Below are positions 40,887 to 43,737 of a stretch of 64,000 bases of DNA, one piece after another. The notes beneath the pieces were generated by a model. It searched no databases, was not told the origin of the DNA, and saw nothing but the letters and a program-made list of their open reading frames with translations. The position numbers and the translations under genes are program-made. The stretch is from Bacteroidaceae bacterium (GTDB lineage: Bacteria > Bacteroidota > Bacteroidia > Bacteroidales > Bacteroidaceae), in contig JAKSIX010000004.1 of assembly GCA_024398595.1 (NCBI GenBank), forward strand, positions 1-64,000, given 5' to 3'. How positions within the stretch are numbered: the first letter of the stretch is position 1; each line of letters starts with the position of its first letter.

Positions 40887-40899
40887 CACAGAGATTCCT

Positions 40900-41355
40900 C
40901 TACCGGACAATCTTGATTGTCTTACCCTCAAGTTTCAGCAGATAGACACCTTTGCCAAGCGAGTCAAGACTGATGGTTTCAATCTGCGACTCTATTTTCC
41001 TGTCTATTACCTGTGTTCCGCCAAGATTATAGATTACTATACGCTTATCGACGGATTTCGCGACAACTATCATAGCTGACGAGGGCACATAGACTATCCT
41101 GCCATCCATAGCAGACACCCCATCACCTCCTGAGGCAGAATAACTGACCTCGGATATATCCGACACTTTATAGGACTCATCCTTACCGTCAGAATACGAT
41201 GCCACCAGTGTGCTGTCCTTATACGATATGCCAACAAGATTCTCCAACTCCACCTCAACCTTGTTGTCATCGCCATCGCTGACAACAAGTTCCTGCCCCA
41301 TCGCTATGACGGACACCGGCAGGAATATCAAAAACACCCAAATCCTATTGAACAT
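40900..41355 (-). CDS. Small secreted protein ending in a type IX sorting-like tail
   Basis: 151 residues. Signal peptide (IWVFLIFLPVSVIAMG), a middle part of about 60 residues (VEVELENLVGISYKDSTL, then DESYKVSDISEVSYS), and a C-terminal domain of about 60 residues with VIYNLGGTQVIDRKI and GKGVYLLKLEGKTIKIV, the pattern of the Por secretion tail (TIGR04183-like). So it is nearly a bare sorting domain. Last gene of the VTC/DUF4956/DUF2490 operon, 9 nt after DUF2490. It may represent the remaining tail of a larger surface protein. Confidence 0.75.
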   Translation of the reverse strand: MFNRIWVFLIFLPVSVIAMGQELVVSDGDDNKVEVELENLVGISYKDSTLVASYSDGKDESYKVSDISEVSYSASGGDGVSAMDGRIVYVPSSAMIVVAKSVDKRIVIYNLGGTQVIDRKIESQIETISLDSLGKGVYLLKLEGKTIKIVR

Positions 41356-41364
41356 ACCTGTATA

Positions 41365-42207
41365 TCAGAAATCAAAGGCGTAACTCAACCCTACCGCATG
41401 GCCACCCGGCTCATCATCATCAGAACGGTTCTGATACATATAGTATAATTTCAAACCGTGATGTTTGCTGAGTTCGAAATCAAGTCCGAACAAGTATCTT
41501 ACCTTCTCAACAGAGAACCCTTCATTCAGATTGTTGAACAGTTCCACGGACGCATACGGGCCGACTGGAAAATTCCTTATGTCATAGCTCGCCAGCAGAC
41601 GTGAGCGCAACGTATGTCTGCGATTGTTCACAGCCTTCCACTCTTCCTCCACATCTTTCAGTACAATATCTCCCGCACGCTTGTCGTAACGGTATTTGTA
41701 TTCATTCACGCACACGCTGTCATTGCCCGTAAACTGGTAGCGCTCTCTCAGCGAGAACTTGAAACGTCCCACCTTGTACGATGCAGACACAGAGGCAAAG
41801 GCGCGTATCCTGCCGACGGTGTATGCAGTATCCAGATTGTAGGCACGCAGTCTGTGTTCACCGTCCTCCCTCCACACTGAAATCGTATCACCCCTGTACT
41901 TCACCGACTCTGGATAATACACCTTCATATATTTGATACCGGCATCCGCCTTTACATCGAAAGTCTTCTTCTCATTGCGATACAGACGATACGACAATGA
42001 TGCCCCGACAGTCCACCTGTCCGTGCGCTTGAAATCCGACAGCCTGTATTCCCCGTCCACCTCTGCGGAAAGTCCTTTCGCCAGCTTCTTCTCTACGCCG
42101 GCACTGAACCGTGTTCCGAACTCGCTTTCCTGATCCTGCGCAATGCAGTTCAGACAAGATATGAGGCTGAGGACTGCGGCAATTGACAGTATTTTTCTCT
42201 TAGTCAT
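41365..42207 (-). CDS. DUF2490-like outer-membrane beta-barrel protein
   Basis: 280 residues. A signal peptide (about 1-23, ending ISCLNCIAQ) followed by alternating amphipathic strands throughout (for example FGTRFSAGVEKKLAKGLSAE, then YKVGRFKFSLRERYQF) and a terminal aromatic F (GLSYAFDF), typical of outer-membrane barrels. Fits DUF2490. Overlaps DUF4956 by 4 nt. Probably the outer-membrane component of the operon; the transported or bound ligand is unknown. Confidence 0.78.
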   Translation of the reverse strand: MTKRKILSIAAVLSLISCLNCIAQDQESEFGTRFSAGVEKKLAKGLSAEVDGEYRLSDFKRTDRWTVGASLSYRLYRNEKKTFDVKADAGIKYMKVYYPESVKYRGDTISVWREDGEHRLRAYNLDTAYTVGRIRAFASVSASYKVGRFKFSLRERYQFTGNDSVCVNEYKYRYDKRAGDIVLKDVEEEWKAVNNRRHTLRSRLLASYDIRNFPVGPYASVELFNNLNEGFSVEKVRYLFGLDFELSKHHGLKLYYMYQNRSDDDEPGGHAVGLSYAFDF

Positions 42208-42953
42208 AGTCTTTTCCCTTTTGTGATATTCTCTATAGTGCCGAACTCGTCCATTACAGGCTCGTAGTAAATCTTGACAAGCGCGGAGTCCTTGAGAAAA
42301 TCCACATTGCCGACCTCCACTCTTATTATCTTAAGACCCAGACGCTGCTCCAGATCCGCCTTCAGTTCCTCTTCCCTGTCGGGAGCCACCAGCTTGAGAT
42401 TATCATACGTAATAAGCTTTGACGGGACATGCTTCACCCAGAACGTGTTCTCGCATACGGCCAGGGCAATGATGAATATAAGGTTCACCACTATCAGTTC
42501 AAAATAACTTATGCGTGTGGCGAGTCCGTTGATTGCAGCCACGGCGATTATCACGAACAGATAGGTCATCTCACGTATCGGCACCTGTTCGGTACGATAC
42601 TTTATAATGCCGAAAATGGCAAACAAGCCCAATGCGAAACCTACCTTCAGCTTCACACCGCCCATAAGATATATGAGCATAAAGATACTGAGGCCTACCA
42701 ACGTAAAGGTGAAGTAATAGTCGCGCCTCTTTATCTTGGGATAATAGAATGCGTGAACCACCACAGCCACCGTCACCACATTGATCAGCAGCCTTATCAT
42801 AAACTCCCGGAATTCTGTCCACTCCGGCCAGAATGAAGGCAGCACTGTCTCTGCAACAGTTTCTACAGTCTCTTCTATGAGTCCTTCCTCGCCCATAGTT
42901 GAAAGCATTGACCCTACACCTGCCGACAGAAAAGATGAAATGGTATGTATCAT
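42204..42953 (-). CDS. DUF4956 membrane protein
   Basis: 249 residues. Several transmembrane helices between about 50 and 165 (including YYFTFTLVGLSIFMLIYLMG and MTYLFVIIAVAAINGLA), with a conserved loop FGIIKYRTEQVPIREMTYLF that is the DUF4956 hallmark. The C-terminal about 80 residues form a soluble domain. DUF4956 is frequently encoded next to VTC-domain polyphosphate polymerases, as here (4-nt overlap upstream and downstream). No enzymatic role is established. Confidence 0.85.
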   Translation of the reverse strand: MIHTISSFLSAGVGSMLSTMGEEGLIEETVETVAETVLPSFWPEWTEFREFMIRLLINVVTVAVVVHAFYYPKIKRRDYYFTFTLVGLSIFMLIYLMGGVKLKVGFALGLFAIFGIIKYRTEQVPIREMTYLFVIIAVAAINGLATRISYFELIVVNLIFIIALAVCENTFWVKHVPSKLITYDNLKLVAPDREEELKADLEQRLGLKIIRVEVGNVDFLKDSALVKIYYEPVMDEFGTIENITKGKRL

Positions 42954-43720
42954 ATCCTGTTCATTATTTTATTGGCATTTCTCATTCTCATATTGAAACG
43001 GTTGTGTTTCAACCCGTCGTTTGTAAACGCTGAGCCTATACAGTATTTGCTGAAGCCTGAAGGATGTACACGCATATCACGCAGAGTATCACTTATCACG
43101 GACTCGCTTCGGCTGTTCCTCTTCACCTCCACCACGACCAGATTATTCATAGCACGAGTCTGTCCTGTCTCCAGATTATGGAACACCAGCCCCGTGTCTA
43201 TTGTCACCCTCTCTGTCATGGCAGTATCCACCAGGGTTATCCGCTCAAAACCATTCTCCAAAGTCGGATACATTTCCTCTAATGGGACAGGCAGCAACGC
43301 CCTCTCAGCCAAAAAATCCCCGGCACCGTCGGATAGAAGCGAGTCAAGCCCCCCCACCTGCATACGTTTCTTTTTTGTCCGCCCGTGATTGTTCTTGAGC
43401 TTCACCTCAAAGAACGATGGATGGACTGAATCCAAATAGGTTCTTACGCGCACCTTCTGTCTTGTAAGCCTGCCGTTATGATGCGCCATATACATCGTAT
43501 GCCCGGCATCATCCAGATAAACCGTATTATACGCCAGATATTTCATGCCATCCACCACCTGAGCCATATATTTGCCGCAGATACGGGACAGCAGTTCCTC
43601 CAACTGACTGTCCGTGACAAGATACTTCCTGTCCGTCCGGTTCATCAGCCTTACCGCGTCCATTTCGTACAGACCTATCTCTGGGAACGGTTCCAACAGA
43701 CTTTTAACAAACTCTTGCAT
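42950..43720 (-). CDS. VTC-domain polyphosphate polymerase-like protein
   Basis: 256 residues from the ATG at 43720. The triphosphate tunnel motifs are in order: MNRTDRKYLVTDSQLEELL, GRLTRQKVRVRTYLDS, FFEVKLKNNHGRTKKKR, and later NNLVVVEVKRNSRSE, with the basic residues that line the tunnel of yeast Vtc4. Vtc4 makes polyphosphate from ATP; most bacteria use the unrelated Ppk. The first gene of a four-gene operon; the -7 box at 43730-43737 leaves almost no leader. Confidence 0.88.
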   Translation of the reverse strand: MQEFVKSLLEPFPEIGLYEMDAVRLMNRTDRKYLVTDSQLEELLSRICGKYMAQVVDGMKYLAYNTVYLDDAGHTMYMAHHNGRLTRQKVRVRTYLDSVHPSFFEVKLKNNHGRTKKKRMQVGGLDSLLSDGAGDFLAERALLPVPLEEMYPTLENGFERITLVDTAMTERVTIDTGLVFHNLETGQTRAMNNLVVVEVKRNSRSESVISDTLRDMRVHPSGFSKYCIGSAFTNDGLKHNRFNMRMRNANKIMNRI

Positions 43721-43729
43721 ATATTCCGT

Positions 43730-43737
43730 CAAATTTA
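43730..43737 (-). promoter_or_regulatory. -7 promoter box for the VTC operon
   Basis: TAAATTTG on the minus strand, 9 nt upstream of the ATG; implies a nearly leaderless mRNA if used. Excludes the upstream TTG at 43732 as start. Confidence 0.5.

Follow-up and report, generated by a model that had tools for sequence, protein, structure and literature searches.

The closest known systems to the operon described here are the VTC complex of yeast, gene groups beside the Pel operons of Gram-positive bacteria, a gene pair of Bacteroides thetaiotaomicron, and the polyphosphate kinases PPK1 and PPK2. In the yeast complex, the polymer is made and at the same time led through a basic channel in the membrane (PMC9911596). 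In streptococci and clostridia, genes encoding CotH, a polyphosphate polymerase and a DUF4956 protein adjoin the Pel operon (PMC7112168), and the pairing of VTC with DUF4956 is already visible in that study as well as in annotated genomes. The B. thetaiotaomicron genes BT3498-BT3499 displayed lower expression under iron depletion, which was not significant (p 0.175, PMC10434189); for this reason, iron regulation of the operon was dropped as a candidate. In a literature search with most subscription journals outside its reach, we found neither a measured activity of any VTC protein from bacteria nor a description of the form occurring in Bacteroidales, with an outer-membrane barrel, a type IX secretion system (T9SS) protein, PF14262 and genomes without PPK, and we make no claim of a first description.

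The locus was analysed within a window of 64,000 nucleotides from a Bacteroidaceae genome (Table 1). The earlier note had described four nearly fused genes, and this layout was confirmed at the coordinates given: the order is VTC, DUF4956, DUF2490 and tail protein, VTC/DUF4956 and DUF4956/DUF2490 each overlap by 4 nt, a gap of 9 nt separates DUF2490 from the tail gene, and all four reading frames are intact. The matches of VTC, DUF4956 and DUF2490 all lie above the curated Pfam cut-offs. The true start of VTC is probably the in-frame ATG at 43720 (256 aa) and not the listed TTG at 43732, since several relatives start there. The genes neighbouring the operon are rsgA, frr, pyrH and a biotin/lipoate ligase-family gene; pyrH is convergent at a distance of 13 nt and frr divergent at 91 nt, both on the strand opposite to the operon. 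The operon promoter is presumed to lie in the divergent intergenic region; promoter and terminator scans, whose models do not cover Bacteroidetes promoters, yielded nothing usable. With regard to the proposed insertion between pyrH and frr, the flanking genes had been named correctly, but the location is old and shared. The operon has frr on its upstream side in 17 of 106 Bacteroidales loci and pyrH on its downstream side in 17, with both flanks present in 6, indicating that the site is common to several genera; occurrence of the operon at the same place in other genera rules out a strain-specific insertion.

Table 1. Features of the VTC-DUF4956 operon and its borders (positions within the window).
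Feature	Coordinates	Strand	Basis
VTC-domain protein, Vtc4-like tunnel enzyme, predicted cytosolic	42950..43732	-	PF09359 5.2e-30
DUF4956 membrane protein	42204..42953	-	PF16316 2.5e-54
DUF2490 predicted outer-membrane beta-barrel	41365..42207	-	PF10677 3.3e-22, OMP_b-brl 6e-7
151-aa secreted protein, N-terminal beta module and T9SS type A sorting tail	40900..41355	-	TIGR04183 1.2e-6
Divergent intergenic region, operon to frr, 91 bp	43733..43823		gene coordinates
Gap from tail gene to convergent pyrH, 13 nt	40887..40899		PF14262 site in relatives

Gene neighbourhoods were compared in 40 same-family loci plus the window and in 80 further loci from a public genome set, all Bacteroidota by their record titles; the loci were found by similarity to the query and not at random, and a few genomes are possibly present in both sets. 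In the 106 Bacteroidales loci, defined as those with a called DUF4956, VTC was adjacent to DUF4956 in 99 and DUF2490 was a neighbour in 96, while the tail protein followed in 45. At the level of 121 same-family genomes, VTC was detected in 66 and DUF4956 in 65, with one copy each: 65 genomes carried both, one VTC alone, none DUF4956 alone, and 55 neither. The pattern persisted with one genome per genus (both in 14, either one alone in none, neither in 16), and in control genomes both families were detected in the same 3 of 14. VTC and DUF2490 therefore co-occur with DUF4956 across many genera and are not adjacent in one strain only. The VTC-DUF4956 pair is the core of an envelope operon that is conserved in Bacteroidales, and the earlier proposal of an operon that spans several compartments and includes a Vtc4-like tunnel enzyme is backed by this conservation and by the residues kept in the enzyme (see below). 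An apparent VTC-DUF4956 fusion in Bacteroides cellulosilyticus was ruled out, as the joined frame (L084) crosses a stretch of N. In a locus of the Paludibacteraceae (L119:11313-13172), a gene encoding an inner-membrane protein with DUF3413 and Sulfatase domains follows the operon, and similar-sized genes occur in L122 and L149.

The AF2 model of the DUF4956 protein (pLDDT 81.8, fair) displays five membrane helices and, C-terminal to them, a small alpha-beta domain, and the protein is accordingly predicted to be a five-TM protein with a ferredoxin-like C-terminal domain. Its charge distribution, by a positive-inside count, places the acidic N-terminus on the outer side of the membrane and the C-terminal domain in the cytosol. 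Comparison with solved structures gave no significant match, which ruled out an assignment as a Vtc1-like or other known channel, and a profile search of this partner matched DUF4956 only, with no Vtc1-type TM domains. By analogy to the yeast complex, DUF4956 may provide the passage for polyphosphate across the inner membrane. The DUF2490 protein ends in a C-terminal Phe and has a signal peptide as called by eye.

The explanation we favour, at a probability of roughly 0.45, is that the product of VTC is polyphosphate or a related phosphate polymer, that DUF4956 carries the chain across the inner membrane and that the outer partners handle the polymer or its cargo. The soluble VTC protein would join gamma-phosphates of ATP into polyphosphate, or into a closely related phosphate polymer, at the cytosolic face. 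The cytosolic domain of DUF4956 would dock VTC, and the chain would be passed across the inner membrane. At the outer membrane or the cell surface, the DUF2490 barrel and the small T9SS-exported protein would handle the polymer or its cargo, a step normally joined by PF14262 as a polyanion-binding beta-helix that is missing in this strain. Polyphosphate synthesis by VTC is plausible; the product, translocation by DUF4956 and every outer-membrane step we infer. Of the suggestion in the earlier note that polyphosphate, or another tunnel-made polymer, is coupled to the envelope, the polyphosphate part is plausible but unproven.

The tail protein scored 28.4 bits against TIGR04183 (T9SS type A; cut-off 23) and 25.3 against PF18962, just below the Pfam cut-off of 27, and a T9SS translocon is encoded in the same genome (SprA_N, 5.7e-200). 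Homologues occupy the same operon place in many relatives. In two relatives (L058:6332-6760 and L068:6047-6454), a type I dockerin end (PF00404, 8e-11 and 5e-10) replaces the T9SS tail, which would fit an exchangeable attachment module in the small protein at this position. A fifth gene in relatives, encoding a PF14262 (Cthe_2159) protein, is located after the tail gene, often with a 4-nt overlap; PF14262 is a beta-helical family of the cell surface with known affinity for acidic sugars; across the 106 loci, PF14262 stands after the operon in 55 and before it in 9. No PF14262 was found in the whole genome under study or in two other genomes of the genus, which still carry VTC and DUF4956, and the 13 nt that separate pyrH from the tail gene hold no remnant of it. 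Thus, the notion that a gene is missing was correct, but the gene that usually stands there is PF14262 and not CotH. CotH occurs near the pair in only 2 of the 106 loci. The tail protein itself is not a remnant of CotH, as had been suggested, or of PF14262, since tail and PF14262 genes occur side by side elsewhere. An N-terminal module common to tail and PF14262 proteins was considered and dropped, as 3 of 77 PF14262 proteins matched at E<0.01. In other Bacteroidales lineages (L126, L132, L123, L137, L149), a secreted RHS-like-repeat protein of ~140 aa overlaps or abuts the start of VTC from upstream, often beside a large PF14262 lipoprotein.

No CotH gene is present in the window operon, and two CotH matches are found elsewhere in the genome. 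CotH is commoner in genomes with VTC (62/66) than in those without (20/55; tree-aware p 0.005), and a role in trans is therefore possible. In one same-family locus (L069:7054-9665), CotH directly follows DUF4956 with a 4-nt overlap and DUF2490 is not called, an arrangement resembling that of Gram-positive bacteria.

Outside the Bacteroidales, VTC and DUF4956 are paired in Deinococcus and in three Alphaproteobacteria, Aminobacter, Shinella and Nitratireductor. A plasmid of Deinococcus taeanensis carries CotH-VTC-DUF4956, and one of another Deinococcus carries VTC-DUF4956 close to phosphonate-transport genes. In Aminobacter and Shinella, plasmid-borne DUF4956-VTC is followed by a phytase-like gene, and in Nitratireductor VTC is followed first by an inorganic phosphate transporter gene and then by the phytase-like one. 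On a Pseudoalteromonas plasmid, DUF4956 is followed after 1 nt by a phosphate-selective porin family gene (PF07396, 2.4e-47). These non-Bacteroidales records support a link to phosphate but are few and anecdotal. The Pseudoalteromonas region (L153:5664-7660) holds an apparent VTC C-terminal fragment, DUF4956 and the porin family gene in a row; the short frame before DUF4956 resembles the VTC C-terminus only (F-S-K-Y-C-I-G, by eye), and this VTC may therefore be broken.

We hold one alternative to be doubtful, yet deserving of attention: the operon may be an accessory module for surface polysaccharide or adhesins. In this case VTC-DUF4956 would provide phosphate groups or some other polymer, or would control export, the product would not be polyphosphate, and PF14262 and CotH-type surface proteins would form or bind the matrix. 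About half of the Bacteroidales loci have PF14262 next to the pair, and the co-occurrence of PF14262 with VTC gave a tree-aware LR of 31 (p 3e-6, estimated by a simple optimiser with a chi-square approximation). The founder of the family, Cthe_2159 of C. thermocellum, folds as a beta-helix and binds both cellulose and polygalacturonic acid (PMC6712302), and 4peu/4phb are the only PDB relatives of PF14262 by sequence. The Pel setting of the Gram-positive genes and the higher frequency of CotH in VTC genomes likewise speak for such a module. However, no polysaccharide synthase stands beside the operon in the window, the alphaproteobacterial copies adjoin phosphate genes instead, and the genome under study has the core without PF14262.

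The VTC protein matched PF09359 with 105.2 bits (cut-off 23), and its AF2 model reached a pLDDT of 96.2. In a Foldseek search against the PDB, yeast VTC subunits filled the first 13 ranks (E 8e-12 to 7e-9), with tripolyphosphatases and cyclases coming after them; the model adopts the closed beta-tunnel fold and aligns to 3g3q/3g3r with a TM-score of 0.62-0.63. Sequence identity to yeast VTC is 14-18%, the comparison with Vtc4 by sequence alone was not significant (hhalign probability 13%), and a sequence search of the PDB found no relative. Since sequence search misses Vtc4, the argument for a relation of the two rests on the fold. A profile search of the 260-aa protein matched VTC only, with no SPX domain. 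The protein was aligned to Vtc4, using PDB chain letters and bridging sequences from Deinococcus and Alphaproteobacteria, together with 54 homologues. Eleven Vtc4 positions (R196, K200, R264, R266, E279, K281, K294, R361, R373, E426 and K428) are identical in 54/54, so that the basic tunnel residues are kept, as claimed before, along with the metal Glu; changes at R264, R266 and E426 inactivate yeast VTC (PMC9911596). A further motif, F-S-K-[YF]-x-x-G, has invariant S228 and K229, matching S457 and the catalytic K458 of Vtc4 by eye, where the automatic alignment differed.

Tunnel enzymes that act as hydrolases bind the second metal through an acidic patch (E2, E4, E90 and E171 of AtTTM3; PMC4641920). 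The positions of E2, E4 and E171 are R32, D34 and K204 in the VTC protein, two basic and one still acidic, and the hydrolase motif ExExK reads R-x-D-x-K, leaving the acidic patch largely missing. The invariant D34 occupies the position of Vtc4 T198, and the patch is for this reason not fully polymerase-like. As judged from the aligned residues, the tunnel pattern leans towards a polymerase over a hydrolase. We regard it as unlikely that VTC is another tunnel enzyme that makes no polymer, such as a tripolyphosphatase, a nucleotide triphosphatase or a ligand sensor regulating DUF4956. The TTM fold is common to tripolyphosphatases, cyclases and thiamine triphosphatases (PMC4641920), and the partly retained acidic patch and the low identity to Vtc4 (15-18%) would fit such a function; on the other side are the first rank of VTC subunits among the fold matches, the Arg and Lys found at the E2 and E171 positions in all aligned sequences, as in Vtc4, and the association of VTC with a membrane partner in almost all genomes. 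That the operon of this strain is a decaying remainder without working output after the loss of PF14262 from the whole genome is very improbable, given four intact frames with 4-nt overlaps kept, conserved catalytic residues and T9SS tail, and the two same-genus genomes that keep VTC and DUF4956 without PF14262.

Searches for PPK1, PPK2 and Ppx gave no match in the genome under study (98% complete) or in 12 genomes of the same genus. Within the order, genomes that carry PPK1 carry Ppx as well, and the genus matched neither the kinases nor Ppx-GppA. Among the 121 genomes, VTC and PPK1 occurred together in 5 of the 66 VTC genomes, with VTC only in 61 and PPK1 only in 35. A plain Fisher test for exclusion gave p 3e-11; on a DnaE tree of 61 genomes the dependent model was better at p about 0.025, obtained with the same simple optimiser and chi-square approximation, a weak signal since few PPK1 losses occur on the tree. 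The data are open to either of two readings: PPK was replaced by VTC, or polyphosphate was abandoned in these lineages and VTC serves another purpose. The genus is also without Ppx and therefore may hold no polyphosphate. We consider it quite improbable that the operon forms a full trans-envelope polyphosphate system that displaced PPK in much of the Bacteroidaceae, a large branch of them, and in which VTC synthesises the polymer, DUF4956 is a new type of conduit through the inner membrane, DUF2490 provides the exit at the outer membrane and T9SS/PF14262 proteins the retention at the cell surface.

The operon of this gut-type bacterium is real, conserved and largely unstudied, and its polyphosphate-polymerase-like core is credible. 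If the favoured explanation of polymerase and conduit is true, bacteria have a second, eukaryote-like route to polyphosphate, in gut bacteria without PPK, and the reading of polyphosphate capacity from genomes needs revision. DUF4956, seldom named in the literature searched, would gain a function, and the origin of the eukaryotic VTC complex would become testable.

Compared to the known systems, the operon shares with PPK1 and PPK2 the proposed product, whereas those enzymes are unrelated and both absent from the genome. With BT3498-BT3499 it shares the order DUF4956 then DUF2490; the table of that study names only those two genes (PMC10434189). The Gram-positive pel clusters, with cotH, polyphosphate polymerase, DUF4956 and DUF4832 genes (PMC7112168), likewise have VTC and DUF4956 in one operon, but here no CotH, DUF4832 or pel genes are adjacent, and the partners are instead DUF2490 and a T9SS-tailed protein, joined in relatives by PF14262. 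In contrast to the yeast VTC complex, the operon has separate genes with neither an SPX domain nor a Vtc1-type TM domain, its membrane partner is the unrelated DUF4956, outer-membrane and secreted partners are added, and the second ExExK position is Asp in place of the Thr of Vtc4. The VTC protein has in common with the yeast complex (Vtc4; PDB 3G3Q, 3G3R, 7YTJ, 8I6V) the tunnel fold, the substrate and metal residues at aligned positions and work beside a membrane protein, here with an expected cytosolic placement.
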